NCBI GenBank assembly: GCA_015061245.1
Contig: SUWY01000003.1
Coordinates: forward strand, 1 to 64,000
Length of the DNA: 64,000 bases
Reading direction: 5' to 3'
Origin: Bacteroidales bacterium
GTDB taxonomy: Bacteria > Bacteroidota > Bacteroidia > Bacteroidales > Marinifilaceae
The notes under the pieces were generated by a model that worked only from the letters and a program-made list of their open reading frames with translations, was not told where the DNA came from and did not search any database. Every line of letters begins with the position of its first letter. Positions within the stretch are counted from its first letter, which is position 1. The position numbers and the translations under genes are program-made. Positions 17,321 through 36,028 of the stretch are shown here, piece after piece.

Positions 17321-18031
17321 ATGAGCTCAAAAACAATCTGTCCGGGAATGTCTCCCGAGGGAGGTGCATTTTCAAATGCATTCCAAGCAAGAACACAGCA
17401 AACCGCTGGAGGTCAGGCACCTGCACAACCTCAGCAAGTAAGTGTATCAAATAAAGATGTTGTTAAGAATAAACCGATTATGGGATTTTTCTTCTCAGTA
17501 TCAAAGACCCCAATGGGAGAGTATTGGCCACTTTATATTGGACAGAATTCAATAGGAAGAACTTCAGATTGTTCAATATGTTTGCCTGAAGCAACTGTTT
17601 CGGATCACCATGCTGATTTGGTAATCAGAAAGATGCATCATAATGGTGAAAAGAGCGGAGTGTTGGTTTTCATTCAAGATAGTGGTTCAACATGTGGTAC
17701 CATGGTAAATGGTAATAGTTTAGGATTTGAACCATGTGAGTGTAAAAATGGCGATATTATTACAATTGGTGAGAATTATGAGTTGTATTTTGTACTCTTA
17801 GATGCAGATTCAATTGGTATTGCTCCTAAAGAGCACTTCGAGAGTGTTGAGGCAAATCCTGCTGCTCATGGAAATCCAGCTTCTGCATTTGATAATGCAT
17901 GGGCACGTAGTCCATTCTCTCAGAATCCGCAACAAGGACAGCCATTTTCAGGTTCTAAAGGAACAATAGGAGGTGCTCCATCACCTTTTACCTCTTCAAA
18001 AACCGGAATATTTACACCTGACAAAAAATAA
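17321..18031 (+). CDS. Cytosolic FHA-domain protein, first gene of the operon
   Basis: 236 residues without signal or membrane span. A Gly/Gln/Pro-rich N-terminus (1-50) leads to an FHA domain (about 70-155) with the phosphothreonine-binding residues in place: IGR (78-80), SDHHA (94-98) and the STCGTMVNG loop ending at about residue 131. The C-terminal 80 residues are low-complexity (Ser, Gly, Pro, Gln). FHA domains bind phospho-Thr peptides, so this is a likely reader for the operon's kinase. It parallels soluble Fha1 of the type VI phosphorylation pathway, though shorter. It stands 17 bp before the phosphatase gene. Confidence 0.9.
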   Translation: MSSKTICPGMSPEGGAFSNAFQARTQQTAGGQAPAQPQQVSVSNKDVVKNKPIMGFFFSVSKTPMGEYWPLYIGQNSIGRTSDCSICLPEATVSDHHADLVIRKMHHNGEKSGVLVFIQDSGSTCGTMVNGNSLGFEPCECKNGDIITIGENYELYFVLLDADSIGIAPKEHFESVEANPAAHGNPASAFDNAWARSPFSQNPQQGQPFSGSKGTIGGAPSPFTSSKTGIFTPDKK

Positions 18032-18048
18032 CATCAGAGTATTGATTT

Positions 18049-18978
18049 ATGGCTATACGAATAGAGGCTAAAGCCATTGTCGATGGTTATATTGAGTCAT
18101 TAATTGGAGGTCGATCTGAGAACCAAGATTTTGCCTTCTCTATTGATGTTTCACTCGGTACTGTTGTTGTTGTATGCGACGGAATGGGTGGTATGAATGG
18201 GGGTAGTGTGGCCTCTCAATTGGCTGTTAAAACGATTATTGACGATGTAGCTGTTGCAACAATGGCAGATTCGCCCTCTGTTGTATTATCGAATGCAGTC
18301 AAGCATGCCAACCAAGTGATAATGGAAACGGCTGCCGCAACTCCGGAATTGGTTGGAATGGGTACAACAGTAGTTGCTATAATTGTCTCAAAAAAGAGTG
18401 CGATTGCAACATACGTGGGAGATAGTAGAATTTATCAGTTGCGTGGAAAAAAGAAGGTGTTTAGAACTTTTGACCACTCAATGGTATTTCAAATGGTCCA
18501 AGCTAAGGTACTTTCCGAGGAACAAGCTCGTTCATCTTCTATGTCTAATGTTATAACCAAAGCATTAGGAATTACAGCTGATTTAGAACCTGAAATATTT
18601 GAATTACCATACCTTTCAGGTGATAGATTTTTATTGTGTTCTGATGGTTTTTGGGGAGCTATGCCTGAACCTGAATTTTTAAAAATGGTAACAGCCAAAG
18701 GAGATATTGAAAAACTCCTTGTAACAACAGCATCGAATGTTGATAGTTTGGGTGTTGCTGCAGGTGGTGGACATGATAATCTTACGGCAGCTCTTTTTAA
18801 AGTAACGTGTAATTCAAAATTAAAACCAAAGATGAGCACAACAACAAAGATTATTATTGGAGTATTATCCCTGTTATTGCTTATCAGTGTGACTTTTAAT
18901 TGTATAACTATGTTTAGTAGTGATGATTCGAATGCTACAGTAGTTGAAAATGAAGTTAATACTGATAAATCAATATAA
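18049..18978 (+). CDS. Membrane-anchored PP2C Ser/Thr phosphatase
   Basis: 309 residues. The PPM/PP2C metal-binding motifs are complete: SENQD (23-27), VCDGMGGMNGG (DG at 44-45), MGTT (104-107), VGDSRIY (124-129), LLCSDGFWG (D199) and GGHDNLT (D243). A single membrane helix follows at about 267-289 and a short tail, so the catalytic domain faces the cytosol. It would reverse phosphorylation by the kinase encoded 3.6 kb downstream. Most bacterial partners of this kind (PppA, Stp) are soluble or have other topologies; the C-terminal anchor mirrors that of the kinase and suggests co-localisation in the inner membrane. Confidence 0.93.
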   Translation: MAIRIEAKAIVDGYIESLIGGRSENQDFAFSIDVSLGTVVVVCDGMGGMNGGSVASQLAVKTIIDDVAVATMADSPSVVLSNAVKHANQVIMETAAATPELVGMGTTVVAIIVSKKSAIATYVGDSRIYQLRGKKKVFRTFDHSMVFQMVQAKVLSEEQARSSSMSNVITKALGITADLEPEIFELPYLSGDRFLLCSDGFWGAMPEPEFLKMVTAKGDIEKLLVTTASNVDSLGVAAGGGHDNLTAALFKVTCNSKLKPKMSTTTKIIIGVLSLLLLISVTFNCITMFSSDDSNATVVENEVNTDKSI

Positions 18979-18999
18979 TAGGTCAAAGTAGTACAAATA

Positions 19000-19770
19000 A
19001 TGAAGAAGACGATATATAACATAGGTAGAGATCCAGAGTGTGATATTTGTCTATACGACACCTCAAACGTAACCAGCCGTTTTCATGCGGTGTTGAAGAT
19101 TGGAAACGATGGTAAATATTATATCCTTGATAAAAGTTCTAATGGAACATTTATTAATGGAGTAAAAATGTCGTCGGGTGTAGAGGTTCCTGTTTCGAGA
19201 ACAGATGTAATTAGTTTTGCTAAAGCATGTGATTTGGATTGGGGATTGATTCCCCATGTTCAAAAGGGAAATAAGAAATTATTGATAATTGTAGCCATTG
19301 CTGTTATTGTACTGGGTATAGTAGGAGGAGTGGTTTACGGATATATCAATTCAATGTCGGACAAAGGTAGTGTTGAATCTAATGTTGGAGAGATTAATAG
19401 TGGTACTATAGAAGGAAACTCAGATACTCCATTTTGGGATACACCATCCTCTGTTGGCAAGGAGACTGATGATAATCAAGACGTAATCATTGAATCTCCT
19501 AATAAGAAGAAAAAAGAGGAGGCTGCTCGTCGTAAAAGAGCGGAGAAGAAAAAGCAGGAAGAGGTAAAAAATAGTGGACAGGGACATGAAATAAAGAAAG
19601 AGAGCGAGGTGAAAGCAGAGGAGAAAACTGTTAAGCCTGCCACCGCTACAGCAACATCTACTTCTACTTCGAAATCTAACCAAACACAATTATCAACTCC
19701 GCCTAAAAAGGCAACTGATATTGAGATAGAGGTTATTGGTGAAGAGGTATATAAAGACGCAATCTATTAA
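19000..19770 (+). CDS. FHA-domain single-pass membrane protein with Lys/Glu-rich periplasmic tail
   Basis: 256 residues. The N-terminal FHA domain occupies 1-85 (NIGRDPECDI, TSRFHA, DKSSNGTFING, all key phosphopeptide contacts present). A membrane helix lies at about 93-115. The rest, on the far side of the membrane, is disordered: acidic and Ser-rich, then Lys/Glu-rich (KKKKEEAARRKRAEKKKQEE) and Thr/Ser-rich. The FHA would be cytosolic. The tail resembles periplasm-spanning linkers. Co-transcribed with the phosphatase (21-bp gap). Confidence 0.88.
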   Translation: MKKTIYNIGRDPECDICLYDTSNVTSRFHAVLKIGNDGKYYILDKSSNGTFINGVKMSSGVEVPVSRTDVISFAKACDLDWGLIPHVQKGNKKLLIIVAIAVIVLGIVGGVVYGYINSMSDKGSVESNVGEINSGTIEGNSDTPFWDTPSSVGKETDDNQDVIIESPNKKKKEEAARRKRAEKKKQEEVKNSGQGHEIKKESEVKAEEKTVKPATATATSTSTSKSNQTQLSTPPKKATDIEIEVIGEEVYKDAIY

Positions 19771-19780
19771 AATTTTAAAT

Positions 19781-21316
19781 ATGAAACTTACAGTAATCGG
19801 ACGCGATCCACAAGAGGCCGACATAGTGTTAAAAAGCGACTATGTAAGTGGTTATCATGCAGAATTAATCCAACTTGATAATGGAGATATTATCCTTATA
19901 GATAAGAGCTCTAATGGAACAACTATAAATGGCATAAAAATGACTCCGGGAAAGGAGTTTATAGTAAAGCGTGGTGATGAAATTATGTTTGCTGATGTTC
20001 CATTTGATTGGTCTTTGGTTCAGGATATAATCATTCCCCAAAATATAAAACAGGTTAAGTGTATTGGTAAGCATTATATGAATGATATATGCTTGCAGGC
20101 TCCAAATGCTAGTCGCTTCCATGCAACATTGCGTGAGATGAATGATGGCGATTGGTATATATGCGATCATAGTAAGAATGGAACTGCGCTTAATGGTAAA
20201 AAGATACCAAAGAATAAGTATGTACCTATTTCATATAAGGATGAAATCTCTTGTGCAGGAGTTCCTATCCAAAATCCAATACCTAAACCATCCATTAAGT
20301 TTGGAAAAATTGGGTTGATTCTTGTCGCATGTATTGCTGTTGGTGTAGGAATTGTACTTTTACTAAATGTTAATAGACCAATTTCTGATGAAAAGTTATA
20401 CCAGAAGTATGCACAATCAACCGCATTGTTGCTATGTGAATATCATTTTGAGGTTACATGCGGATCATTGGATATGAGTCAGCTTCCTGATCCCGATTAC
20501 TATAACAAAAAGAAGGAGATTTATACAAAAAGATTGACCGATAAGTTTGTTGTTGAGGGTGAGACATTGATTCCATATAGTGAGGAGGCTGGTAATGGTA
20601 TGGCTTATACAGCAACAGGTTTCTTTATTGGAAATGATGGTAATGTTGTAACAAATTTACATGTTGCAAAACCATGGTTAAGTTCAACGATTCAAACAGA
20701 AACAATGTCTTCTGCTGTAACAATTCAATCTTTGGCCAATGATTATTACCGAGCAAAATTAAATAAATTGGTTGAGCAAGGTTTTACTCCTGCAATTCAG
20801 TATATCTCTCAAGTGGAGGTAAAGGGTGTTTTGGATTATGTTATTTTGGTTCCAAATGGCTCATATTTAGATGAAAAGAATGCTGTTAATTGTCATGAGG
20901 TAATTTGCAGTAATGATCAAGAGGTTGATTTGGCAATTTTCAAAATCAAATCACAAACACTTCCTGTTGGAGTAACTCCTGTTCCTTTAGATGAGATTTG
21001 TGTTGATGAACCAATGACCGGTAGACACATTTATACAATTGGTTTCCCATATGGCTTGAACTTACTCGATAATATTGAGGGTACAAAGATTCAGGCTAAT
21101 GCTGTTGGGGCAACAATATCTCGTACCGATAATATTAAGACATTTGGTTTTGATGGAGTTTCATATAGCGGTGCAAGTGGCTCACCAATCTTTAACGAGT
21201 ATGGAGAACTAGTGGGTGTGCTTTATGCTAAAGTAGCAGATTCTCAAGGTTTTAATTTTGCTGTAAGAGCTAAGCAGTTGAAACTTTTATTGGACAAAGC
21301 TGAAATAGTAGAATAG
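19781..21316 (+). CDS. FHA-FHA-transmembrane-trypsin-like protease
   Basis: 511 residues from the ATG at 19781; the frame opens at 19736 inside the previous gene, but only MKLTVIGRDP starts the FHA domain correctly. FHA1 is 1-85 (VIGRDPQEAD, SGYHAEL, DKSSNGTTING). FHA2 is about 88-165 and more diverged: IGKHYMNDICL lacks the usual Arg, while ASRFHATL and HSKNGTALNG are kept. A membrane helix is at 176-197. The periplasmic part (about 275-505) is an S1-family protease: H294 in NLHVAKPW, D383 in EVDLAIFKI and S466 in SGASGSPIFN. No PDZ domain is seen. The layout suggests a cytosolic phospho-signal read by FHA domains controlling a periplasmic protease, which is an inference. Confidence 0.88.
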   Translation: MKLTVIGRDPQEADIVLKSDYVSGYHAELIQLDNGDIILIDKSSNGTTINGIKMTPGKEFIVKRGDEIMFADVPFDWSLVQDIIIPQNIKQVKCIGKHYMNDICLQAPNASRFHATLREMNDGDWYICDHSKNGTALNGKKIPKNKYVPISYKDEISCAGVPIQNPIPKPSIKFGKIGLILVACIAVGVGIVLLLNVNRPISDEKLYQKYAQSTALLLCEYHFEVTCGSLDMSQLPDPDYYNKKKEIYTKRLTDKFVVEGETLIPYSEEAGNGMAYTATGFFIGNDGNVVTNLHVAKPWLSSTIQTETMSSAVTIQSLANDYYRAKLNKLVEQGFTPAIQYISQVEVKGVLDYVILVPNGSYLDEKNAVNCHEVICSNDQEVDLAIFKIKSQTLPVGVTPVPLDEICVDEPMTGRHIYTIGFPYGLNLLDNIEGTKIQANAVGATISRTDNIKTFGFDGVSYSGASGSPIFNEYGELVGVLYAKVADSQGFNFAVRAKQLKLLLDKAEIVE

Positions 21317-21320
21317 GTTT

Positions 21321-22619
21321 ATGAAGAGTAGATTACTAATATTGTCCTTATTTATATTTACAACTTTGCAAGTAAAGGCACAAGTTGTAGAGCACATTTA
21401 CACTAAAGATGGTGCAATATATGAGGGATATATCTCAGAGCAGATTCCCGGAAGGCAAATTATGATTAGTGCAGAGAGAGCGCGATTAGTCTTTCCAAAA
21501 AGTTCTGTTTCTGGTTTGAAAGTTGAATCAAAAGGGTTTGATAAATTATCGGAAGAGGCAAAAGAGTGGTTTACTAATATAGGTAATACTACGGACATTA
21601 ATAAGGCATCGTTTACTGCAAATGGAGTCTTTTATGATGATGCATATATGCTTAAGAATGATGCTGATTCAATTACAATTGTCTCTTTTGGAAATAGAAC
21701 TTATCCATTGATTTGGGGCGCTATTGCCAAGACAATTAAGACTAATACAAATGAAATGGTACATGGTGTTGGTGAGATTATTACTACTGTATTAGGACAA
21801 CATTTTATTGGTCAGATTGTTGAACAATATCTTGGAAAGTATATAACACTTCAGGATGAGAAGGGTGATATGCGTAGGATTGATTACTCTAACATCCTGC
21901 ACATTAATGCTCAGAAGTTGTCGGAGCGTTATACATTATGGGAACAGGTTCAACTATTAGATAGATTAGTGTTGGTAGATGGGTCTGTTGTGGAAGGATT
22001 TATAAACCAGCGAGTTATTGGCAGTAAAGTGTTTATAACTGAGGTAGGTCAAAATACAGATAGACCTATTGTATTGAAAGATATCAAAAAGTATCAGAAA
22101 GTTCCTAATAAGCTTTATCAACCTTATGGAACAAATAAGAGTGCCGAAGTGTCTCAAGTTGAGCCTAAAGTAACAATAGTCCCTGAAACTGTTGTAGAGC
22201 CTAAAGTAAAGAAAACTATATCTGATGGACAGCGGATTTTTGTGAATGATATCGAAGTAAAACCAATCTCTTCATTTCAGGATAGTAAGAGAATATACTT
22301 CCCCGGATCATCTTCTGCGGTAGTAACAACGAACGATAAAGTAGTCATTGAATTAGTTGGTATTAAGCCAGATTCTGAGATGTATGTGTATACAACAAAA
22401 GATATGATGCCCGATGTTGCAATGGATGACCCTCATGCAATGAAAATGTTGCCATCAATCAAATGGAGTGATTCTCCAATATGGAGTAGTGAATATGTTA
22501 TGCGTGGTAACAAGCGTAGCGCAGAGTTTATCCCGGAAAATGCAGGTACATATTTTATTTCATTAAAACAAGATATGTCTTTAGGTGTGTTGGTTGTTGT
22601 TAAATCAGATGAATTATGA
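21321..22619 (+). CDS. Exported protein of unknown function, operon-encoded
   Basis: 432 residues with a signal peptide ending QVKAQ. The N-terminal half has repeated strand motifs of the form DGxxxEGxI (TKDGAIYEGYISEQ near 28-41 and VDGSVVEGFINQRV near 217-230), separated by a hydrophobic stretch around 145-175. The C-terminal 140 residues look like an independent beta domain ending SLGVLVVVKSDEL. No family recognised. Its stop overlaps the kinase start (ATGA), so tight co-expression with the kinase is certain at the sequence level, and a periplasmic partner of the kinase is plausible. Confidence 0.75.
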   Translation: MKSRLLILSLFIFTTLQVKAQVVEHIYTKDGAIYEGYISEQIPGRQIMISAERARLVFPKSSVSGLKVESKGFDKLSEEAKEWFTNIGNTTDINKASFTANGVFYDDAYMLKNDADSITIVSFGNRTYPLIWGAIAKTIKTNTNEMVHGVGEIITTVLGQHFIGQIVEQYLGKYITLQDEKGDMRRIDYSNILHINAQKLSERYTLWEQVQLLDRLVLVDGSVVEGFINQRVIGSKVFITEVGQNTDRPIVLKDIKKYQKVPNKLYQPYGTNKSAEVSQVEPKVTIVPETVVEPKVKKTISDGQRIFVNDIEVKPISSFQDSKRIYFPGSSSAVVTTNDKVVIELVGIKPDSEMYVYTTKDMMPDVAMDDPHAMKMLPSIKWSDSPIWSSEYVMRGNKRSAEFIPENAGTYFISLKQDMSLGVLVVVKSDEL

Positions 22620-23686
22620 ATATAGTTAAGATTCAAGGACCGAACGAAATGAAAAACAATCTGCATTATGAGTATGATGCAGACTCTACACCTCTTGGAG
22701 AGGGTGGAATGGGTAAAGTTTTTCAGGGTTATTGTATTAATGATAACAATCCTAATGAATACTTTTCTGTTGCAATAAAGGTTGTTACAAATATAACTCC
22801 GGCCTTAATAGAACGAGCAAGAAGAGAGGCCTCTATTCAGATTGATCATCCAAATTTATTGAGAATGTATGGATTTATTCCGAACATGGAGTGGGATGCG
22901 GCTACAAATGCTCATGTAACAAGATATTATCTTATTATGGAGCGTTTGGTAGGTGTGAATTTGGATAATCTGTTAGGTGGTTTAACTCTTGACAATTCAG
23001 GTATTCAAGTTGATTATGCCAAAAAGTTATATGATAAATATAGAAATGATAAGCATAATGCAATAAAATTGATTGTAAATAATGTATTACAAGGTGCTTC
23101 TGCTTTACACAAGAGTGGTTATATACATCGTGACATAGATCCAAGCAATGTGATGATTACAGAGCAGGGTAACATTAAGCTTATCGATTTTGGAGTTAGT
23201 AAGTCATTGTTTGACAATAGATTTCAGTTGACAACAAGTGGATCTATCATTGGAAAATTAGAGTATGCGGCTCCCGAAATTATATCTGGAAAAGTTGAAC
23301 AGCATAATGTAACAACAGATATTTATGCCATTGGAATTTTTATCTATTTGTTGGTGACAGGTTCATTGCCGTTTGTTGGAGATTCTGCACAAGTAATGCA
23401 GGCTCAGATTATGCAACCTGTTCCTATTCGCAATATTCGTAATTTGAGTATCAGACAAATAGTAGAGAAGGCTACACGTAAAGCTCAATCAGAGCGTTAT
23501 CAGAGTGTAGATGAGCTTATTGCTGATTGGTCAAGAGTTGCCGAAGATAGTTCACCAATAACATCGGGTAAGACTGTAGTTCCAGTTAAACAGAGTTCAG
23601 GAATACCAGCATGGTTATGGGTCTTTATGATAATAATTGGCTTGGTAACAGGTATTGGATTAGCTGTAATAGTGTTAGGATTATGA
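22616..23686 (+). CDS. Membrane-anchored Ser/Thr protein kinase (Hanks type)
   Basis: 356 residues. Kinase domain about 20-305: glycine loop GEGGMGKV (28-35), VAIK with K55, helix-C Glu in ARREAS (E71), catalytic HRDIDPSN (D173, N178), DFG (191-193) and YAAPE (218-221). The usual HRDxK lysine is Asp (D175). An acidic linker then leads to one membrane helix (331-354) with almost no periplasmic part. PpkA-type kinases carry a periplasmic vWA domain on the same chain; here a secreted vWA protein is encoded separately 3 kb downstream. It likely phosphorylates Thr in the operon's FHA partners; substrates are unknown. Confidence 0.93.
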   Translation: MNIVKIQGPNEMKNNLHYEYDADSTPLGEGGMGKVFQGYCINDNNPNEYFSVAIKVVTNITPALIERARREASIQIDHPNLLRMYGFIPNMEWDAATNAHVTRYYLIMERLVGVNLDNLLGGLTLDNSGIQVDYAKKLYDKYRNDKHNAIKLIVNNVLQGASALHKSGYIHRDIDPSNVMITEQGNIKLIDFGVSKSLFDNRFQLTTSGSIIGKLEYAAPEIISGKVEQHNVTTDIYAIGIFIYLLVTGSLPFVGDSAQVMQAQIMQPVPIRNIRNLSIRQIVEKATRKAQSERYQSVDELIADWSRVAEDSSPITSGKTVVPVKQSSGIPAWLWVFMIIIGLVTGIGLAVIVLGL

Positions 23687-25254
23687 TGAGTAGATTATTA
23701 TTAGTAGTAATTTTTTGTATCCTGTCGATTTCCAATATCTGTGCACAAACATTGACTCGTAGTCAAAAAAGACAGATGCACATGATGGTATTGAGTGCTA
23801 TTGACGAATACGAGATGAATGCTTCGGTAGCAGATAATAATGCAAGATACAATTTTATACGATTGTTTGAATCCGAGGATACTCCGATATTTTGTGACTT
23901 GTACAATAGTTCAGAATATTTTATGGAGGGCAATATGCCTGTTAACGAGTATAGTAATTGGTTGTTGGAGCAGTGTAGCGCAGTAACCATTAATTTAAAG
24001 AATATTAGAAAAGGAGATATTCTATATGCAGATAGCTCGTGGTTGTATCAAGTAACATTGTCCAAGAGTATTAGTTATGCAGACGAGAATGGAATTTTGT
24101 TTCCTATTGAGGAGGAAAAAGCACCCGATTTTGTTTTGCAATTTACTTACAGATTGGATTCTACCCTTACTCAATGTAAAATTACCGAGATTATTTGTTT
24201 GAACGAAGGTGATTTTAAGAAATTGAATCATGGATATCTTGTTCAAAGACGTTATGAGGGTAAGAATGCAAAACGTGATGTAGAGGTAAAGGTTAATGGA
24301 GAGTATTTGGATTACAATAGCTTTGGACAGGCTTATGCTGAGCGAGGTCGCTTTGATTTCTGGAATGGTAATATAAAGGTAAAAACCGAAACTATTGCAG
24401 ATGAAGAGTTGTATGAGTATGTTACTTTTAAATATATAAAGAAGCATCTTAGAGTAAAACTAAGAGCAGAGATGGCTGTAGGTTCTGCCTATTCTGTTGT
24501 AAATGACGATAGTTTTGCTAAGAGTGAATCAGAAGGATACTGTTTTGGACTTGATCTTGGAGTATCAGCAACAATAGGAAAGATTTTTCGTTGGGGTTGG
24601 TATACCGGTGTCGGGATGTCAATGACGAGTTTGAATTTTGAGACCTCGCCTATGAACTACAGTATTGCAATGACTGATCAAAAAGGCCGAGGTTATAACC
24701 GCGTTTATGATATTGCCTCAATGTCTCAGGGAGTGAATTTTACAGATATAATGGTTCCTTTGTATACACAGCTTGATTTTAAGTTGTCAAGAGGTGTTGC
24801 CTTTATAGTTGAGGTTGGTGCCAAAGGATATTATAATATGCAGACAGAGAATGACCCATACAGAGTTGTTGCCGATGTATACGGAGATTATGGTAATGGA
24901 ATGGTCATTAATGATGGAGAACAAGCATTTGGTCATATAGATGCAACTTATAATGAATTTATATTCCCTGCTTCATTTAAGCGACAAAAGTTTGATGTGT
25001 CGTTAATGGCCTATGCAGGCTTTGATATCAATTTGGTAAAAAATACTCTATTATTAGAGGTAAAAGGTGGTTATGAGCGAGGATTAAAAAATTCTTATAA
25101 ATCGGACGAAAGAAGCTATAATACAACTAGAATACCCCCATTGGTTTACTCTTCGGAGTTAGGACGTGATGTAGCTATGCAACCTATTGCAAGTTGTGTT
25201 TCATTCAAACGCGAGGCTATATGGGCAAATGTGGGTTTAATGGTTAAATTTTAA
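23683..25254 (+). CDS. Exported protein with C-terminal outer-membrane beta-barrel
   Basis: 523 residues from the ATG at 23683, which overlaps the kinase stop (ATGA); upstream in-frame ATGs lie inside the kinase. The signal peptide ends NICAQ. Residues 25-250 are a periplasmic domain without a recognised fold. From about 260 to the end, alternating strands with aromatic girdles (LRAEMAVGSAYSVV, FRWGWYTGVGMSMTSL, FKLSRGVAFIVEVGAKGYY) and a terminal Phe (WANVGLMVKF) indicate a beta-barrel of the outer-membrane protein family. It may link the inner-membrane kinase complex to the outer membrane. Confidence 0.75.
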   Translation: MMSRLLLVVIFCILSISNICAQTLTRSQKRQMHMMVLSAIDEYEMNASVADNNARYNFIRLFESEDTPIFCDLYNSSEYFMEGNMPVNEYSNWLLEQCSAVTINLKNIRKGDILYADSSWLYQVTLSKSISYADENGILFPIEEEKAPDFVLQFTYRLDSTLTQCKITEIICLNEGDFKKLNHGYLVQRRYEGKNAKRDVEVKVNGEYLDYNSFGQAYAERGRFDFWNGNIKVKTETIADEELYEYVTFKYIKKHLRVKLRAEMAVGSAYSVVNDDSFAKSESEGYCFGLDLGVSATIGKIFRWGWYTGVGMSMTSLNFETSPMNYSIAMTDQKGRGYNRVYDIASMSQGVNFTDIMVPLYTQLDFKLSRGVAFIVEVGAKGYYNMQTENDPYRVVADVYGDYGNGMVINDGEQAFGHIDATYNEFIFPASFKRQKFDVSLMAYAGFDINLVKNTLLLEVKGGYERGLKNSYKSDERSYNTTRIPPLVYSSELGRDVAMQPIASCVSFKREAIWANVGLMVKF

Positions 25255-25260: not shown

Positions 25261-26115
25261 ATGGAGGTAAGAAAATTCAAGTGTATAAATTGTGGACAGA
25301 TGTTTGAAACGGATAATCCGGATCCATTGTGTCCTAATTGTTGTTCAGATAACATAACTCCATGTAAACAAGGGGCTTCCGGAATTGCATTGTTCTTTGC
25401 TGTACTTGGAAGTATTGCTATCGGATTTGGAGGAGTGTATATATATAAGTCAATGGGCGAGACAGAACCTTTGGCTCAGGAGCAATATGGAACCTACGAA
25501 CCAATCGAGCAACCGGTTAGACCCGTGCAGATTACCGGAGAGAAACCTGTAGAGAAAATCCCGGAAAAGCCTGCATTAAGTACGGTACCCACCTTTATAA
25601 CTGATCCCGTCGTTACAGTAGCAGGTGAGAAATATAACGTTTCAATAAAGGCAAATACTGAGACTAACGATAGAGTTAGATATGAGTTGTGTGATTATAA
25701 CACTACAACCGTTAAGTATTCCAATTTTGATGGAGAGTTTAAAAATGTAGAAGCTGCTATCGATGGTACAGATACTTATACAATTTATGCTGTAAATACA
25801 AAGACTAATGATTGTGTTAGTATTAATGTCCCCGGTTTTAAGAAAATAGTTGTAGCTAAGCCTATTGAAAAGTTAACTAAAGAGGAGTTGCAGGAAATCT
25901 TCAATTCAGGGAATGAGACACCTGAGTTAAAGAGCAAATTTGCCAATAAGTATACATTGACATTTAACGGATTACCTGATGATGAGCCTGCACCTGATCG
26001 CTATAGTGAAATATTTAACCGCTTGATTGCCGGTTGGTTATCGGTTGAAGTTGTAAGTGTCAAATATAATTCAATGAATTATATAACTGCAATTGAATTT
26101 AATGTAGAGTTGTAA
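25261..26115 (+). CDS. Zinc-ribbon single-pass membrane protein
   Basis: 284 residues. The first 30 residues form a cytosolic zinc ribbon: CxxC at 8-11 (CINCG) and CxxC at 24-27 (CPNCC). A membrane helix follows at about 41-63, then a Pro/Glu-rich linker (85-115) and a periplasmic part of about 165 residues with two small domains, the second ending AIEFNVEL. No family beyond the ribbon. Such ribbon-helix-tail proteins often act as membrane-tethered adaptors. One base overlaps the next gene (TAATG). Confidence 0.75.
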   Translation: MEVRKFKCINCGQMFETDNPDPLCPNCCSDNITPCKQGASGIALFFAVLGSIAIGFGGVYIYKSMGETEPLAQEQYGTYEPIEQPVRPVQITGEKPVEKIPEKPALSTVPTFITDPVVTVAGEKYNVSIKANTETNDRVRYELCDYNTTTVKYSNFDGEFKNVEAAIDGTDTYTIYAVNTKTNDCVSINVPGFKKIVVAKPIEKLTKEELQEIFNSGNETPELKSKFANKYTLTFNGLPDDEPAPDRYSEIFNRLIAGWLSVEVVSVKYNSMNYITAIEFNVEL

Positions 26116-26735
26116 TGAAGAAAGGGTTGTTGATACTATTATTGGGAATAATCTTCACAATGAACGGCTACTCCCAAACAAGTAGATTGGTCTTTACATA
26201 TATTGCCCACTCTACCGAGACTCCTGTAGTTCAGTTATGTAATGAGTTGCGTTCACAATTCGATTTTGCACGAAACTATAGAGTGCCAACGGTTTTTTAC
26301 CTTGCAAATATGAAGATGCCACTTATTGCTAAAATTGCAGTAGGAGAGGAGGAAGATGATGTTGAAACTTTTGATAGGATTATTAAAGAGCTTCAAGAGC
26401 GTCGTTTTCATAGCGTTGATTCAAAGGAGGATGTAAATCAAATTGTATCCCTATTTAATCAATATGATTTTGTAGATGATAATGATTCTCCAAAATATAA
26501 GGAGATGGAGTGGAATTTCTTTATAGATCAGGCCTTCTGGGATTTGAAATATAATGAAAAGATTATAGCAACTCTCTATTACACATTGGATATAGAGAAC
26601 TATGCTAGTGACTTCTTAAGATTAAGAGTATTCTATTCAGGTGATAGAGATGAATTAATATTCGATGAGGCTAATCCATATGGATTGAAGAATATATGTC
26701 CTAATATTAACATATTTGATAGACTAAAATTCTAA
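26115..26735 (+). CDS. Exported protein of unknown function, operon-encoded
   Basis: 206 residues with a signal peptide ending NGYSQ. No cysteine lipobox and no motif I recognise. It has an alpha/beta look with charged helices (DVETFDRIIKELQERRF) and a C-terminal region rich in aromatics (WNFFIDQAFWDLKYN). Its start overlaps the previous stop by one base and it precedes the vWA gene by 7 bp, so it belongs to the same translational block and probably acts in the periplasm. Confidence 0.7.
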   Translation: MKKGLLILLLGIIFTMNGYSQTSRLVFTYIAHSTETPVVQLCNELRSQFDFARNYRVPTVFYLANMKMPLIAKIAVGEEEDDVETFDRIIKELQERRFHSVDSKEDVNQIVSLFNQYDFVDDNDSPKYKEMEWNFFIDQAFWDLKYNEKIIATLYYTLDIENYASDFLRLRVFYSGDRDELIFDEANPYGLKNICPNINIFDRLKF

Positions 26736-29144: not shown

Positions 29145-30017
29145 ATGAGTAAACTATTTGACATAGAGGCTTTGAAATGCTCTTACGATAAACATTATTG
29201 TGAGGGTATTTCTAAGTGTGTGTTAGAGATAAAGCAACTCCATTTACCTAAGGGGAAAAAGATTTTTATTGTTGGAGAGTCGGGAATAGGAAAGAGTACA
29301 ATTCTAGAGGTGCTTGGTTTAATGAATAATACTATTGTTGAAAATAGCGAGACCAAGTTCCTTTTCTATGAGGATGGAAAGGAGCCTATAGATCTTTTGG
29401 CTATGTGGCACAGAAATAAGGATAAAGAGTTATCTGCATTTCGTAGAAAACATTTCAACTTTATCTTCCAAAGTACCAATTTGATGCGAAATTTCACTGC
29501 ATACGAGAATATTTCGATAACAAGAATGTTGCAGGGATATACACAATATTCATCCTTTAAGCGTGCACATAAGCTTTTGGTTGAGCTCGGATTGGAACAT
29601 ATTCATGAAGAGAGAATGGCTCAGGAACTTTCCGGAGGCCAGCAACAACGTTTAGCATTTGCCAGAGCTATTCTTCCTGATTTTACTGTGTTGTTTGGTG
29701 ATGAGCCTACAGGAAATTTGGATAGCGACAATGCAACAAAAGCAATGGAGATATTGACTGATAAGCTTGCGTCAATGGAGGGAAGTTCTGCAGTTATTGT
29801 ATCGCACGATATGAATCTGGCAGTAACTTTTGCAGATATAATAATCAAAATACACAAGGAGAGTAGATTACCGGAACATGAGGGTGATGAGATAACATAT
29901 TACGGTGTTATAGACAATGAGTCGATCTATTTGCCCAATGATGATAAAAGTAGTTGGACAAATGGTAAAGAGAAATACTCAAAGCAGGAGTTTGTTACCT
30001 TTTTAAAGAGAGTTTAA
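29145..30017 (+). CDS. ABC transporter ATPase, MacB/LolD type (TagT-like position)
   Basis: 290 residues. Walker A GESGIGKST (44-52), Q-loop IFQSTNLMRNF, signature LSGGQQQR, Walker B VLFGDEPTGNLDS and switch VSHDMNLA are all present. It belongs to the LolD/MacB/FtsE branch, whose members power permeases with large periplasmic domains and act on envelope proteins rather than import solutes. A C-terminal extension of about 50 residues follows the ATPase core. The permease gene starts 2 bp later. In the type VI phosphorylation pathway the equivalent pair is TagT-TagS; orthology is inferred from gene content only. Confidence 0.92.
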   Translation: MSKLFDIEALKCSYDKHYCEGISKCVLEIKQLHLPKGKKIFIVGESGIGKSTILEVLGLMNNTIVENSETKFLFYEDGKEPIDLLAMWHRNKDKELSAFRRKHFNFIFQSTNLMRNFTAYENISITRMLQGYTQYSSFKRAHKLLVELGLEHIHEERMAQELSGGQQQRLAFARAILPDFTVLFGDEPTGNLDSDNATKAMEILTDKLASMEGSSAVIVSHDMNLAVTFADIIIKIHKESRLPEHEGDEITYYGVIDNESIYLPNDDKSSWTNGKEKYSKQEFVTFLKRV

Positions 30018-30018: not shown

Positions 30019-31584
30019 ATGAGCAAAATAAAGATACTTACGGGGGATTATTTTAAGCTCTTTGTGAAACGCGAGGAGAAGGTGGTGTTGGGACGACACT
30101 ACTCAAATTTGTGGCTATTGACTGCTGTATTGACATTGACATTTTTGGCAATTGCATTTAGTAGTGCAAGTTTGAATTATCTCTCATATAAGATGAATGA
30201 TCCATTTATAAATTGGGTTGATATTCAAAATGAGTATGGGGAGGGGGATATTGACGGTTTGTTAGATGGTTTATCTGATACCAATAATATGAAACAATTT
30301 CATTTTGTGGCTCATCAGGTAGATTATACATTTAATTTTAATGTTTTTGGAAAAGAGGAAAAGCAAATTCAATATCCGGATTTTCGTTTCTTCCAATCAT
30401 TTGCAGGAAACCCCTTATTAAAATCCGTATTGGATAGAGAGAATGTAGTTGACAAATGTGCACTCCCTTTTGAGAGTTTGAGCGATGATATGATAGGTGT
30501 AATTGTAACCTACGATTTTATAAAGAAATTGGGTTACGATGATGACTTTCCGGCATATTTGGATATGTGTAGATATGGAGGTAGCGCAGATACTTTAGGT
30601 TTCCCGCTATTTCAAGGATTTGCTCATGTACCTGTTCCAATTATTGCTGTTGTAAAGCGTTTGCCAATGAACATGGATATCATTGCAACAAAGTATTTTT
30701 ATGAGCAGTTAAGGAATGATTTGACCTATCCATTTTTATTGGATAATCGCAAATATGCCATTACGCTCAATTATTTTGTTCCTTCGGATATCCCGGAAAC
30801 CGAGTTTAAAGAGTATATACGCTCTATAGGCGGAGAATTGGTATTTGTCCCTAAACAGGCTCCATATTTACCATTACTCAGAACCTTTAAACCCGGATAT
30901 TATGTTAAGGTGACGGGAGCTTATGATGATATGACTCCACAGTTTGTAACATCGCTCCATAATAAGGTTGTAGAGAAGTATGGTGAGTATGATATACATA
31001 GGGTGTATGATTATAATTTTAAGCCATACCAATTGCCTCAAGGTTCATATATCTCTATTCAATTTGCAGATTTGAATAACATTAGAGCATTTGAGAGTTT
31101 TGTTAAAGATACATATCGAGTGCAAATAGAGATGGAGCAAATTAATGCCAAAGAGAATTTTAATGCGGTAAGTGTTATGGCTAACATATTGTCGTGGGCC
31201 ATAATAGTATTTTCAATTCTTTGTATTATGTTGTTTGTCGTTAATTTGTTGCAGTCTTATTTCCAGAAGGTTAAGCGTAATCTTGGTACTTTCAAGGCTT
31301 TTGGAATTGGTAATTTTGAGTTGATAAGTGTTTATGTACTTATAATGATTTCAACAATTGCCGGAGCTATTGGTTTGGCTTTGGCCATATCATATACAAT
31401 AGAGTTGATTTTACCATTATGTGGTATAATGAAAGATGGGGCATTTAGCTATTTAGCTTTGTGGAGTCCTAAAACTTTCTACTCAATTGCTGTTATTATG
31501 ATTTGCTCAATTGCCACGGTATATATGGTTATGAAGCGGTTGTTATCGGCAACTCCGGGAGATTTGATTTATGATAGACAATAA
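30019..31584 (+). CDS. ABC transporter permease, FtsX/MacB type (TagS-like position)
   Basis: 521 residues. One membrane helix near 32-52 is followed by a large periplasmic domain (about 55-375), then three C-terminal helices (about 385-412, 435-465, 485-508), the classic FtsX/MacB topology. The FtsX-like core includes FQKVKRNLGTFKAFGIGNFE, a typical coupling segment. It should form a dimeric mechanotransmission complex with the ATPase encoded just upstream. The next gene's lipoprotein may be a periplasmic partner. Confidence 0.88.
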   Translation: MSKIKILTGDYFKLFVKREEKVVLGRHYSNLWLLTAVLTLTFLAIAFSSASLNYLSYKMNDPFINWVDIQNEYGEGDIDGLLDGLSDTNNMKQFHFVAHQVDYTFNFNVFGKEEKQIQYPDFRFFQSFAGNPLLKSVLDRENVVDKCALPFESLSDDMIGVIVTYDFIKKLGYDDDFPAYLDMCRYGGSADTLGFPLFQGFAHVPVPIIAVVKRLPMNMDIIATKYFYEQLRNDLTYPFLLDNRKYAITLNYFVPSDIPETEFKEYIRSIGGELVFVPKQAPYLPLLRTFKPGYYVKVTGAYDDMTPQFVTSLHNKVVEKYGEYDIHRVYDYNFKPYQLPQGSYISIQFADLNNIRAFESFVKDTYRVQIEMEQINAKENFNAVSVMANILSWAIIVFSILCIMLFVVNLLQSYFQKVKRNLGTFKAFGIGNFELISVYVLIMISTIAGAIGLALAISYTIELILPLCGIMKDGAFSYLALWSPKTFYSIAVIMICSIATVYMVMKRLLSATPGDLIYDRQ

Positions 31585-31591
31585 TATTGAT

Positions 31592-34045
31592 ATGAAATAC
31601 AGATATTTATTAGCATTGTTAGTTGCCATAGGGCAATGTTGGGCATGTAGTACAGAAGATGATGAGTATATGAATCCTTCAATAATTGAGGATCAGGCTA
31701 TTCTGTCGGGCCCTTCAAATATTGATTTATACCCATTAGGAGATGAGTATACCGTTACATTTACATCGCCTGTTGAGTGGTTTTTGGACAGCAAACCAAA
31801 TTGGTTAAATGTAAATCCAAATCAAGGATCTTATGTTTCCGGTACAACAACACTTAATCTTAATGTGAATGTAAATGATGATAATGCTGTACGTGAGGCG
31901 ATATCGTATTTTTTACCTTCCTATAATCAATCAGGTTATGCCTTTGCTATACCAATTACTTTCAAACAACCCAGACCGGTATTGTTTACAAATATCGATT
32001 CCATGTGGTTTGATTGGAATGAGACTTCTATCGATTTTGCTCAACTCTACGATGTAAGAAGTAATGTATTCTGGAAGGTTAAGACAATTTATCAAAGTGA
32101 TGCCTCGCCCGTAACTGCTGAACACTTTTCACTGCCGGCAGAGAGTGTGGTTAATAGAAATGGGGCAGAGATAAATGTTTTTCCTAAAGAGTGGAATTTA
32201 GGAATTGAACCATATAATATTCATGTGGTTTTAATGCCTGTAAGGGTAAATCGTGATAGCTCTGTAGTTGAAGTTACATCAAGCGCTTGTCCTGAGATTT
32301 TGTTAAAGTTGTGTCAAAAGAATTTAAGATTCTTAATTGATGGAAGTGTAGAGAGTGCAGAGTATACATTAAATGAGTTGAATACCAATCCGATAGATTT
32401 GCAAGTTGATGCAGAGAGCCCTTGGCGTATCGAGGAGATTCCTTATTCAGATTTTCCTGATTGGGCAGAATTCTCGGTTGATAATGGAGTTGGAATTACC
32501 GATATTGTTTTAAAAGCAGATGGGGTAAATCCAACAACCGAGCGTAGAAGCGGATGGGTTCGTTTAATGACTGATGCCGGTGCATATAGAGATATTTATG
32601 TGTCACAAGATCCTTATATTTTCAATTTTACCGGAGGAACTTCATTCTCCGATAATAACGACGAGGCTTACATTGTAGAGACAACTACATTGAATACAAC
32701 CGGTAGTTGGGAAATATCGGGTGTCCCATCTTGGGCAGAGGTAACTCCATTGAGTGGAACCGATACAACTCTTTTGACAATCAAGACACTTGAAAGAAAT
32801 ATGAGTACCGAAGATGTGACTGCAAATATCAGAGTTGCAAGTACATTGAATAGCGTTTCTCAGAATTTGAACCTTACATTGGAAGCATTTGATTTTGATA
32901 TTGTGTATGATGAAGATTTGTTTGCTTCAATACCAACCCTATCTACCGGACCTTTTGACCTTGAGATTCAAGCGTCGGGAGATTGGGAGATTCGTAATGT
33001 ATCAAATTGGATTCATTTATCAAGAACAAGTGGAACAAGTGGCAGAACGATGGTTACAGTAACTGTAGATCCTATTGATTCTTCATCTGAAGAAGATAGA
33101 ACCGGAAGTTTTACAGTTGTAAGTCTTGAACACGAAAAGATAGGTGCCACTTTGACTCATACGGTAAATATGCTTCATAAGAAGTATGTATATAATGTGA
33201 CAGGAGATATGAATATCTCATATCCGGCTTATAGCCAAAATTATGATATTGCTTCTGTCGATGTTGAGTGTAGTGTTGATTGGTCGGTTGCCGAGTGTCC
33301 AGATTGGATTACTCCGAGCGTTAGAAGTGGAATTGGTAGTGGAGTTGTAAATGTGCGTTTTACCCCTGATGCTAATACATCTACAGAAGTTCGTAGCGGA
33401 ACAATTGTTATTAGAACCAATTACGATGCACCATACAACGGAGAAACAACAATAAGTGTAACACAAGAGGGATTTGTATTCGATAATACAGAGCCGGTTA
33501 CTCATGTTGATATTTCAGAGAGTGCCGGAGGTCTATTTACTGTTCCATTTACAATGACTGCCGAGGCCGGTTGGAGCGTTATAGTATCAGATGATTGGAT
33601 TACTGCAAATCCGACAAGTGGTTCTGGATCTGGATCTGTAGTATTTACAATTCCTGCAAATGACCAGCTTACATCGAGAAGTGGAACGGCAAGAATTCGT
33701 TCAACGCTGACAGGTCAAGAGAAGCAAATCTCATTTACCCAATTACCGTTTGTGTATAGCGTTGATACCGATGCTTTGAATTATACTTATAACTCATTAG
33801 TTGAACCTGAAGTAGTTGTTGAGTGTAGTGGAGCGTGGAGTGTTAGCAGCAATGCTGACTGGGTTAAGTTCAATGTAACTCAGGGTGATGGTAATGGCTC
33901 TTTCATAATTACTGTTCTAAATAATCAGGCTTATGAGGAGAGAAGTGCTACTGTAACTGTAACAAGTACACTTAATGGATTAACCCATACAATTTCAATT
34001 ACACAAGGAGCAGCTCCGGAACCGGAGCCAGAGCCGGCAGAGTAG
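31592..34045 (+). CDS. Lipoprotein with about seven BACON domains
   Basis: 817 residues from MKYRYLLALL, which gives a lipoprotein signal (lipobox CWAC); ATG at 31571 overlaps the permease gene and is less likely. The acidic stretch after the cysteine (STEDDEY) fits the Bacteroidota surface-export signal. Seven beta-sandwich repeats of about 85-95 residues carry the BACON pattern W..(10)..W followed by a Ser/Thr-Gly turn: for example WFLDSKPNWLNVNPNQGS, WEISGVPSWAEVTPLSGT, WSVIVSDDWITANPTSGS. BACON domains usually bind glycans or serve as spacers. The protein ends in a Pro-Glu repeat. It is the putative surface arm of the operon. Confidence 0.9.
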   Translation: MKYRYLLALLVAIGQCWACSTEDDEYMNPSIIEDQAILSGPSNIDLYPLGDEYTVTFTSPVEWFLDSKPNWLNVNPNQGSYVSGTTTLNLNVNVNDDNAVREAISYFLPSYNQSGYAFAIPITFKQPRPVLFTNIDSMWFDWNETSIDFAQLYDVRSNVFWKVKTIYQSDASPVTAEHFSLPAESVVNRNGAEINVFPKEWNLGIEPYNIHVVLMPVRVNRDSSVVEVTSSACPEILLKLCQKNLRFLIDGSVESAEYTLNELNTNPIDLQVDAESPWRIEEIPYSDFPDWAEFSVDNGVGITDIVLKADGVNPTTERRSGWVRLMTDAGAYRDIYVSQDPYIFNFTGGTSFSDNNDEAYIVETTTLNTTGSWEISGVPSWAEVTPLSGTDTTLLTIKTLERNMSTEDVTANIRVASTLNSVSQNLNLTLEAFDFDIVYDEDLFASIPTLSTGPFDLEIQASGDWEIRNVSNWIHLSRTSGTSGRTMVTVTVDPIDSSSEEDRTGSFTVVSLEHEKIGATLTHTVNMLHKKYVYNVTGDMNISYPAYSQNYDIASVDVECSVDWSVAECPDWITPSVRSGIGSGVVNVRFTPDANTSTEVRSGTIVIRTNYDAPYNGETTISVTQEGFVFDNTEPVTHVDISESAGGLFTVPFTMTAEAGWSVIVSDDWITANPTSGSGSGSVVFTIPANDQLTSRSGTARIRSTLTGQEKQISFTQLPFVYSVDTDALNYTYNSLVEPEVVVECSGAWSVSSNADWVKFNVTQGDGNGSFIITVLNNQAYEERSATVTVTSTLNGLTHTISITQGAAPEPEPEPAE

Positions 34046-34070
34046 TAACGATTAAGCAAAAACATATATT

Positions 34071-34751
34071 ATGAATGTTATAAAGATAGGACGTGCGCAA
34101 GATAACGATTATATCGTTAGTAATCCCATGGTAAGCGGACACCATGCAGACATTGTGATAAACGATGAGGGATGTGTATTTTACGAAGACCATAGTACAA
34201 ATGGAACAATGATAAATGGTCAGTTGGTACATAACTCATCTATGCAACTATTCGGAAGTGAGGTAATAACGTTGCCAGGTGACTTCAATTTCACAATAAG
34301 CGATATTGTCAAAATATCACCACAGGAATCAACCGGAACTATTGCCGGATATATTCCAAATCCACCTGTTGTTCAACAGCAGGAGAAAGAGATTGTTGTG
34401 GCAGATAATGATGTTCCGGTAGCAAATCCTGCCATGTCGTTTGGAGAGACATTTAAATATTTCTTTGCACACTATACAGATTTTTCAGGCAGAGCCAGAA
34501 GAAGTGAATATTGGTATATGGCATTATGGGATTTAATATTCTCGCCCATCTATCCATTATGGTTTTTTGCGACAATCATTCCAAAATTGGCTCTATTCTG
34601 GCGACGCATGCATGATATAGGAAAAAGCGGTTGGATGTACCTATTGTGTTTGATTCCATTTATAGGTGCAATACTGATCTTTATATTTTTATGTACAGAT
34701 TCACAGCCGTATCAAAATCAATATGGTCCAAGCCCTAAATACAGTAAATAG
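34071..34751 (+). CDS. FHA-DUF805 membrane protein, first of a tandem pair
   Basis: 226 residues. FHA domain 1-85 (IGRAQDNDYIV, SGHHADI, DHSTNGTMING), a Pro-rich linker, then a DUF805 domain (about 125-225) with FSGRARRSEYWYM at its start, WRRMHDIGKSGW in the middle and a last helix before the QNQYGPSPK end motif. DUF805 is a small polytopic membrane domain of unknown function. A phospho-Thr reader fused to it is unusual. Next to a second copy with 2-bp spacing. Confidence 0.88.
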   Translation: MNVIKIGRAQDNDYIVSNPMVSGHHADIVINDEGCVFYEDHSTNGTMINGQLVHNSSMQLFGSEVITLPGDFNFTISDIVKISPQESTGTIAGYIPNPPVVQQQEKEIVVADNDVPVANPAMSFGETFKYFFAHYTDFSGRARRSEYWYMALWDLIFSPIYPLWFFATIIPKLALFWRRMHDIGKSGWMYLLCLIPFIGAILIFIFLCTDSQPYQNQYGPSPKYSK

Positions 34752-34753
34752 AG

Positions 34754-35521
34754 ATGCGAATAATAAAGATTGGAAGAGCCAAGGACAACGATTTTGTAGT
34801 TGACCATCCGGCAATCAGCAGTCATCATGGAGATATTTTTATTAATGATGATGGTTCTATGGTATATGAAGATCATAGTACTAATGGAACAATGATTAAT
34901 ACAGATTATATCCATAAGAAAAGAGTAAGAATTAATGGTAATGAAAGAATTACTCTGCCAGGAGATTTAAGTTGCTTAATAAGTGACCTAACCGGAGTGT
35001 GCGCTCAGGAACAGGACCATAATGTTGGTCCTAAATATGGCTATACCCCTATAGGTGCTGCTGCACCTATTATGGATTTACCCGAGGAGCCTCTACCGGA
35101 AGAGATTACCTTTGTCGGAGCTTTGAAGAAGTTTTTTACTCACTATGCTGTATTTAAGGGACGTTCAAGACGTACTGAATTTTGGTATGTCTATATATGG
35201 CAAACAATTTTCTCTATAATATTGGTTGCTTTAATGCTTCTTACATCATTACCATCATTGGTATTGATTGAGAGCGATCCCACTGCATATACGGCATCGG
35301 TAATGGTGTGGATAATTATTTCAGGAATACGGGGATTGGCAACATTGGTTCCAAGTTTGGCACTTACTGTAAGACGTTTACATGACACAGGAAGAAGCGG
35401 AGTGTTCCTATTATTCTATTTAATTCCATACGTAGGAGGATTGATTATATTGATATTTATGATGCTTGATTCCAAACCATTTACTAATCAATATGGTCCG
35501 TGTCCCAAAAAGATTAACTAA
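34754..35521 (+). CDS. FHA-DUF805 membrane protein, second of a tandem pair
   Basis: 255 residues and a paralogue of the preceding gene: FHA domain 1-85 (IGRAKDNDFVV, SSHHGDI, DHSTNGTMIN) and DUF805 from about 120 (FKGRSRRTEFWYV, VRRLHDTGRSG, NQYGPCPKK). The second DUF805 has a longer loop with an extra membrane segment (about 155-205). In the SSHHGDI motif the last small residue is Gly, not Ala. Divergence between the copies is large, so the duplication is old and both are probably kept for separate roles. Confidence 0.88.
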   Translation: MRIIKIGRAKDNDFVVDHPAISSHHGDIFINDDGSMVYEDHSTNGTMINTDYIHKKRVRINGNERITLPGDLSCLISDLTGVCAQEQDHNVGPKYGYTPIGAAAPIMDLPEEPLPEEITFVGALKKFFTHYAVFKGRSRRTEFWYVYIWQTIFSIILVALMLLTSLPSLVLIESDPTAYTASVMVWIIISGIRGLATLVPSLALTVRRLHDTGRSGVFLLFYLIPYVGGLIILIFMMLDSKPFTNQYGPCPKKIN

Positions 35522-35548
35522 ACAACAAAACAACTAAATATCAAAGCT

Positions 35549-36028
35549 ATGAAACAGACATTATTTATTGCACTATTAGGCGCAGTGATGGCATTGAGTT
35601 TGACATCGTGTGGTACAACAAAGATTACAACCTCGCCTGTTTACTCATTGGCTAACAGCCAAGTAACAAATGGCGAGTTAGTAACCGTATTAGAGACAGA
35701 AAAAGAGTTGGAGGCTGAGATTAGCGGAAAATTCTCATGGTCACAAAAAATCAAGAAAATTGTTGGAATGCCAAAGATGCAGTATGTTATTGATGGAACT
35801 TGGGCATCATGGCAAACTAGAGGTGTTGCAGCAGCTAAAGCGGCTGTGTTGTATAAAGCCCTTGAGGATAGTGGATGCGATATAGTATTGGCGCCAATTT
35901 ACAATGTAACTCTTCACAAACGTAAATTTAACGTTAAGGTAAAGGGAATCGGAGCTAAGATTGTCGATGTAGAACAAAGAACCGACGGCAATGTTATTAA
36001 ACATTTGCACGTTGAAGGTGGTAACTAA
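35549..36028 (+). CDS. Small lipoprotein, last gene of the operon
   Basis: 159 residues with lipobox LTSCG (Cys about 21). The mature part is alpha/beta with a Lys-rich C-terminal half (LHKRKFNVKVKGIGAKIVDV). A helix ARAAA-like segment (RGVAAAKAAVLYKALEDSGC) and the following DIVLAPIYNV look like a small periplasmic binding fold. No family recognised. It occupies the place of a TagQ-like lipoprotein in the analogy with the type VI phosphorylation pathway, but sequence support is absent. A strong terminator follows 20 bp later. Confidence 0.75.
   Translation: MKQTLFIALLGAVMALSLTSCGTTKITTSPVYSLANSQVTNGELVTVLETEKELEAEISGKFSWSQKIKKIVGMPKMQYVIDGTWASWQTRGVAAAKAAVLYKALEDSGCDIVLAPIYNVTLHKRKFNVKVKGIGAKIVDVEQRTDGNVIKHLHVEGGN

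Follow-up and report, generated by a model that had tools for sequence, protein, structure and literature searches.

A conserved Bacteroidales operon joins a TssR-like protein to an ABC transporter and kinase-phosphatase genes apart from type VI secretion

We analyzed a stretch of 64,000 nucleotides from a Bacteroidales bacterium of the family Marinifilaceae (assembly GCA_015061245.1, contig SUWY01000003.1, positions 1 to 64,000; hereafter the window), which contains an operon encoding FHA proteins, a PP2C phosphatase, a Ser/Thr kinase, vWA proteins and an ATP-binding cassette (ABC) transporter. The initial annotation had likened this operon to the phosphorylation control of type VI secretion systems (T6SS) and had listed a secreted vWA protein among its products. 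The operon is real, and judged from its sequence the vWA protein is a full-length homologue of TssR, an identity that had been missed and that is the sole real link to type VI secretion. The three Pfam TssR domains occur in order (40.8, 59 and 26.0 bits against 25.7, so that TssR_C lies barely over the cut-off). In HHalign, a profile of its family aligned with TssR from the type VI systems of three genomes over nearly the full length (99.9%) and scored below 1% with TssN, TssO, TssP and TssQ. The protein starts with a signal stretch that lacks a lipobox, and carries the metal ion-dependent adhesion site (MIDAS) motif DGTAS at residues 348-352.

According to Bongiovanni et al. 2024 (PMC10781749), TssR is one of the five TssNQOPR proteins that form the membrane complex of the Bacteroidota T6SS (T6SSiii) and is reported there to have no homologues beyond type VI loci; its authors sought components of the complex that lack type VI genes, with the aim of finding an ancestral co-opted system. 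The NCBI name of an Alistipes homologue is "type VI secretion system protein TssR domain-containing protein", and the TssR homology is thus already in the databases. In a literature search that mostly did not extend to subscription papers and preprints, neither TssR outside type VI loci nor the gene cluster was reported in titles or abstract openings. The gene system is therefore apparently undescribed in the literature searched, the TssR homology itself being database knowledge. Finding one of the five parts of the T6SSiii membrane complex in a conserved operon free of T6SS makes it testable how this complex arose, and the operon may show where the type VI TssR came from. It also follows that the label "TssR domain-containing" need not mean a type VI system.

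The absence of a T6SS was assessed with a Bacteroidota TssC protein query, which was positive in all control genomes (3/3 and 3/3), and with the TssN model PF17555, which was found in five of six controls, the sixth being 65% complete. Results of PF05943 were disregarded, as it is the wrong TssC model and also missed two T6SSiii genomes. TssC gave no match in the genome of the window, in 24 of 26 genomes that carry the cluster, or in any of eight genomes with the more distant TssR-ABC loci described below (i.e., in 33 of 35 genomes), and TssN gave none in all 35. The absence from the window's own genome would alone be weak evidence, because this genome is 83.5% complete. BLAST queries with 14 type VI proteins from a single T6SSiii genome found nothing in the window or in the other 54 kb of the contig. 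The system thus appears free-standing with no type VI genes nearby, as had been proposed. The two genomes with a TssC match, a Prevotella and a Paramuribaculum (behind loci L016 and L025), carry it in addition to a T6SS-free TssR cluster, and the match in the L025 genome has an internal stop. These two genomes and the TssR homology itself are what speaks for an operon left over from a type VI system or regulating one remotely, a reading that we consider exceedingly improbable given the 33 and 35 negative genomes, the intact operon and motifs, and the separation of its TssR lineage from type VI TssR in the tree below.

In sequence, the other proteins compared did not resemble the type VI complex. 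The comparison with TssO, TssP, TssQ and TssR that had been suggested held for TssR only: znr, sec206, omp and hypP matched TssO, TssP and TssQ at no more than 6.2% in HHalign, with profiles of two rows for TssO and three for TssQ (the latter rows named by position). The L051 row was left out of the TssO profile since it has stops in the chosen frame, and the second row of the TssN profile (L052) is a putative TssN. No sequence homology of these four proteins to TssN, TssO, TssP or TssQ was detected by HHalign. At the type VI loci, TssP adjoins TssR in 15 of 15 rows (BLAST).

The neighborhood survey that had been called for revealed the same gene block in 26 loci. These come from a single, non-exhaustive, pattern-based scan of species-representative genomes, queried with 25 aligned TssR-like proteins, which yielded 27 loci; the planctomycete locus L027 was left out as it matched by the vWA domain only. 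The loci belong to Alistipes/Rikenellaceae, Prevotella, Bacteroidaceae, Paramuribaculum and other Bacteroidales. TssR is preceded by znr and sec206 in all 26, and omp is present in 24. The ABC ATPase was found in 22 and the permease in 21, the remaining contigs stopping short of them. The kinase occurs in 22, PP2C in 20 and FHA in 18 loci, and three of the four loci with no kinase match are on contigs no longer than 7.1 kb. The core consists of omp-znr-sec206-TssR-ATPase-permease plus the phospho-module, and the recurrence of this gene block in 26 loci exceeds chance. Large surface-type proteins (counting those of about 900 aa or more) lie at 17 of the 26 loci, 13 of them lipoproteins and four with tails like those sorted by type IX secretion systems (T9SS); the lipobox and tail patterns behind this count were self-made and give false positives among transmembrane (TM) segments and shorter proteins. 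The T9SS tail of L026 was confirmed by Pfam, and relatives of the BACON protein of the window occur in 12 loci. A second TssR copy lies near the first in L001, L012 and L018.

A tree was built by a quick search from 53 TssR rows (open reading frames (ORFs) of at least 600 aa, E ≤1e-10) and left unrooted. Short ORFs (L010, L021 and pieces in L053 and L055), L107 and L027 (vWA only) were left out. One branch with an SH-aLRT of 100, flagged for long branches, parts 15 type VI TssRs from 38 T6SS-free TssRs. Among the tree rows the TssR of the window pairs with an Alistipes protein (support 99), and that of L101 attaches closest to the type VI side. A complete MIDAS (D-x-S/T-x-S) is present in 33 of the 38 T6SS-free proteins versus none of the 15 type VI proteins, and the second metal aspartate in 32 of 38 versus one of 15. 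The T6SS-free proteins with an incomplete motif are those of L025, L102 and L103 and the second copies of L012 and L018. Type VI TssRs carry differing partial remnants of the motif, and three of them retain D and S around a glycine. vWA domains ancestrally bear the metal site, and since MIDAS is missing from the type VI form, the latter looks derived. The sequences suggest as much, giving the evolutionary change a direction, and yet this is an argument and not a proof, because the tree lacks a root and its rows cannot count as independent. Most simply, the type VI TssR would be a sister lineage whose metal site disappeared when it took on a structural role.

Beyond these loci, a survey with TssR_VWA (E ≤0.001) gave matches in 24 of 295 genomes at the level of the order and in 25 of 395 at that of the phylum, with many weak vWA matches. 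From such surveys we chose 12 places not associated with type VI and examined about 20 kb around each. An ABC pair adjoins TssR in eight of them (not in L057, L063, L064 and L107), and its ATPase and permease are fused into one protein in L056, L058 and L059. A protein related to omp was recognizable at six of these eight distant loci: HHalign gave 99.2% for the L056, L058 and L059 group over most of the protein, 97.6% over the barrel part, and 93.3% for L102 and L103 over the N-terminal domain, five unrelated neighbors scoring about 2% or less, and L055 was linked by BLAST. Two further candidates were dropped as omp relatives, x166 (34% in HHalign, but over the signal-peptide region) and a PKD protein (8%). 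In L058 the omp-like protein bears a sec206-like C-terminal domain (hmmsearch E 1.8e-5), which with L056 included matched at 36% in HHalign versus 0.1% for the reversed profile. The two kinds of fusion, ATPase with permease and omp with sec206-like domain, therefore point to joint action. T9SS sorting tails were detected beside six of the eight loci, two confirmed by Pfam (L055 and L102) and four by our own pattern. No kinase, PP2C or FHA match was found in the stretches around the eight loci, and the phospho-module is for this reason an add-on to the core. This suggests that the module regulates a machine whose purpose lies elsewhere. It is possible, although we would not give it an even chance, that a Bacteroidota-wide, T6SS-free envelope machine gave the type VI complex its TssR, whose metal site was then lost. 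Such a machine would combine a TssR that binds metal with a vWA partner, a barrel in the outer membrane and an ABC motor resembling those of type VII, and would be phospho-controlled in some Bacteroidales.

The interpretation of the operon that we favor, at a likelihood approaching but not reaching even, is an ATP-driven, envelope-spanning machine that is switched by the kinase and phosphatase via the FHA proteins. Families, gene order, conservation, catalytic motifs, MIDAS and the lack of TssC and TssN matches are observed, and the mechanical steps are inferred from the families. Family and topology probably place the ABC pair among the type VII (mechanotransmission) transporters. It would drive motion of the periplasmic TssR and sec206, and znr (Ig-like, inner membrane) and the outer-membrane barrel may couple these to the large surface protein of a neighboring gene (the BACON lipoprotein in the window, and a different lipoprotein or a T9SS-sorted protein at other loci), the coupling altering the display, binding or release of that protein. 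The tail-anchored kinase and PP2C would set the phosphorylation of the cytoplasmic ends (i.e., of the Zn-ribbon protein, the FHA proteins and the ABC ATPase), and phospho-dependent FHA docking could gate assembly or activity. On the best reading, drawn by analogy, a machine gated by Thr phosphorylation would work like the type VI threonine phosphorylation pathway (TPP) without being a member of it, and would have an envelope machine of its own as output. Such machines, with a phospho-control of their own in Bacteroidales, would form a class that is apparently unstudied.

Several observations weigh against this interpretation, in addition to the two TssC-positive genomes and the missing phospho-module of the distant loci. 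The FtsX match of the permease is below its cut-off, and the permease profile matches no PDB chain. The vWA match of the sec206 model is only moderate: its top Foldseek matches are vWA domains with E from 6e-5, at TM-scores of about 0.4-0.5. Two of the eight distant TssRs (L102 and L103) lack MIDAS. L012 has the ABC pair on the opposite strand, and omp was not found there. Relatives of hypP occur in only 10 of the 26 loci, and a profile search of these loci gave no relative of the small lipoprotein, although lipoproteins of similar size occupy its place in L011 and L017. The neighboring surface protein varies from locus to locus, and that of L014 has no Pfam match. In L001, L009, L013 and similar loci the kinase beside omp lacks HRD by our own pattern, and some kinases may therefore be pseudokinases, possibly in pairs, as a second FHA-kinase of these loci does have HRD.

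Alternatively, the barrel, the vWA proteins and the ABC pair might together be a sensor of damage or contact, as TagQRST, that activates the kinase. Signaling would then run inward only, with phosphorylated FHA proteins (the protease and DUF805 proteins) as output and nothing moved outside. The functional classes do match those of TagQRST-PpkA-PppA-Fha (PMC10482370), and FHA domains are carried by a protease as well as by membrane proteins. However, we judge this reading rather unlikely, as the TssR-ABC core occurs in eight genomes with no match to kinase, PP2C or FHA nearby, so that signaling to a neighboring kinase is not its general purpose. Export was also considered: a Lol-like ABC pair would deliver a large lipoprotein of its own to the barrel, the vWA proteins serving as chaperones, or the system would help T9SS cargo. 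The ATPase is nearest to LolD and MacB, large lipoproteins or T9SS-tailed proteins stand at 17 of the 26 loci by our own patterns, and two lipoproteins downstream of the operon share an N-terminus and differ in their C-termini (see below). Even so, the surface proteins of different loci have no demonstrated common targeting region and the barrel belongs to a small type (OMP_b-brl_2), and we regard an exporter as unlikely.

The envelope machine that we favor resembles three known systems in part. Its TssR corresponds to that of TssNQOPR of T6SSiii (PMC10781749) along nearly the entire length and contains the same three Pfam domains. In each of the two systems, TssR stands behind membrane-anchored periplasmic proteins, one of which has Ig-type domains; these are PKD in TssP and an FN3/Ig-like predicted model in znr, and the sequences are unrelated. 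Unlike T6SSiii, the operon has no TssN or TssC match, its TssR has no lipobox and a complete MIDAS, and an ABC pair, a barrel and a phospho-module are added. The TPP (TagQRST-PpkA-PppA-Fha1; PMC10482370) is likewise composed of a Ser/Thr kinase, PP2C, FHA, an ABC transporter and a periplasmic vWA domain, and in these functional classes the likeness to TPP control proposed by the initial annotation fits. Its claim that nearly all TPP parts are present is not supported. FGE/TagR is not a conserved part (a relative was found by BLAST in one of 26 loci), and the FHA proteins reach at best 51.4 bits to TIGR03354 (TagH), over the FHA domain only, against a cut-off of 120.25. PpkA is a kinase with its own periplasmic vWA domain, whereas the operon kinase ends in a tail anchor and vWA is on separate proteins. 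Type VI output is also lacking. Finally, the type VII ABC systems (MacAB-TolC, LolCDE, FtsEX-EnvC and YbbAP-TesA), have a MacB/LolD-type ATPase in common with the operon, whose permease fits FtsX in its topology; they differ from the operon in that the genes beside its ABC pair encode TssR, a vWA-like protein and a small barrel, and MacA, LolA, EnvC and TesA were not among the general Pfam matches of the window proteins.

Table 1. Features of the operon and its left flank
Feature	Position	Strand	Evidence
Three tRNA-Glu(ctc) genes, left edge of inserted stretch	15761..16045	+	ARAGORN
Tyrosine recombinase	16177..17079	+	Pfam Phage_int_SAM_5 69.8, Phage_integrase 35.3 bits, above cut-offs
fhaA, FHA protein, 236 aa	17321..18031	+	Pfam FHA 52.4 bits; no hydrophobic stretch found, hence no TM
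PP2C phosphatase	18049..18978	+	PP2C_2 61.4 bits; metal motifs intact; C-terminal hydrophobic anchor 261-291
fhaB, FHA, hydrophobic segment 87-105, Lys/Glu-rich tail	19000..19770	+	FHA 60.6 bits
fhaS, FHA-FHA-TM-trypsin-like protease	19781..21316	+	FHA 109.6, Trypsin_2 55.3 bits; TM 171-203; trypsin H/D/S candidates; start moved to ATG at 19781
hypP, signal-like stretch at N-terminus	21321..22619	+	No Pfam family at E 0.1
Ser/Thr kinase, C-terminal tail anchor 326-356	22616..23686	+	Pkinase 123.3 bits; VAIK52, HRD171, DFG191, APE219 intact
omp, N-terminal domain and outer-membrane beta-barrel	23686..25254	+	OMP_b-brl_2 30.9 bits; start moved to ATG at 23686
znr, predicted membrane-anchored: Zn-ribbon-like N-terminus, TM 41-65, linker, Ig/FN3-like sandwich ~106-194, alpha/beta C-domain	25261..26115	+	Ig-like by structure model
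sec206, small secreted protein	26115..26735	+	vWA-like AlphaFold2 model, pLDDT 89.3
TssR homologue, 797 aa (TssR barrel, TssR_VWA, TssR_C)	26743..29136	+	Pfam, three domains (bits in text)
ABC ATPase, MacB/LolD type	29145..30017	+	ABC_tran 80.5 bits; best PDB matches MacB and LolD, E ~1e-29; NCBIfam LolD 133.5 bits, under equivalog cut-off 307.75
ABC permease, FtsX/MacB-like topology	30019..31584	+	FtsX 19.2 bits (cut-off 25.5); hydrophobic stretches: one N-terminal (28-52), four C-terminal (within 381-506)
Large BACON-repeat protein, probable lipoprotein	31571..34045	+	Six BACON stretches; acidic residues behind Cys (CSTEDDE, read by eye)
FHA + DUF805 membrane protein	34071..34751	+	FHA 53.4, DUF805 89.7 bits
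FHA + DUF805 membrane protein, second copy	34754..35521	+	FHA 49.7, DUF805 99.6 bits
Small lipoprotein	35549..36028	+	LTSC lipobox
Terminator-like hairpin and T run	36057..36076	+

With ORFs recomputed, the operon spans 17321-36028 and comprises 16 genes, all on the + strand with spacings of -14 to +27 nt (Table 1). The strand and the gaps of at most 27 bp given by the initial annotation hold, its count of 15 genes does not, and the several ATGA overlaps reduce to one 4-nt overlap (hypP/kinase), besides two of 1 nt and one of 14 nt. The five FHA proteins, which contain six FHA domains (two in fhaS), and the PP2C, the kinase, the ABC ATPase and the outer-membrane barrel were all recovered by Pfam above cut-off, and the permease fits the FtsX type in its topology, with a Pfam match below cut-off (Table 1). 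The terminator was located as a hairpin, but terminator-like sites are not in excess (seven versus 9.2 expected from shuffles). At the distant locus L055 (L055:2432-3049), a small lipoprotein beside the ABC genes starts with CGTTSKIT, which resembles the start of the operon's small lipoprotein (CGTTKITT).

The operon lies in a stretch of about 31 kb whose simplest reading is a gain in its own lineage. A sister species (one genome of the same genus) lacks the stretch: there, roughly 200 bp separate the same three tRNA-Glu genes from h475 and pnp, and alr and truA follow. These flanks are about 31 kb apart in the window (16046 to ~47550), where a tyrosine recombinase adjoins the tRNAs. A TssR-like gene was found in none of 58 other genomes searched (one of the same genus, 33 of the same family and 24 of the same order), and no attachment repeat was found when looked for at the inserted stretch. 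The island with its integrase, together with a kinase that resembles PADLOC defense kinases, might indicate an anti-phage or conflict system. We consider this very unlikely, since the PADLOC matches among the ten proteins scanned are single generic domains (kinase, PP2C, protease and ATPase) and make up no whole system, the vWA proteins and many other parts are predicted to be periplasmic or outer-membrane, and no MoxR-type ATPase is among the general Pfam matches.

Some minor features of this island and of another locus were also observed. A tyrosine recombinase 37% identical to that of the window adjoins the TssR and ABC genes of L101 (genome G390). Between integrase and operon lies a 27-nt near-inverted repeat (17093-17119 and 17266-17292), and between its arms, at 17252, the promoter-like TAATTTTGC, which we take to be a Bacteroidales-type motif. 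The gene directly downstream of the operon (36114-39569; FGE/BACON/DUF4859) is FGE-like, as first described, and an in-frame TAG at 36396-36398 cuts its signal-like start from the rest. It is followed by two adjacent lipoproteins (39639-42104 and 42113-44065) that have a 97% identical N-terminus of 265 aa (DUF4988) and differing C-termini, that of the first containing a vWA domain. The next gene (44109-47456) combines DUF4988 with BspA-type leucine-rich repeats, and the DUF4988 genes look like an arrangement of exchangeable cassettes.

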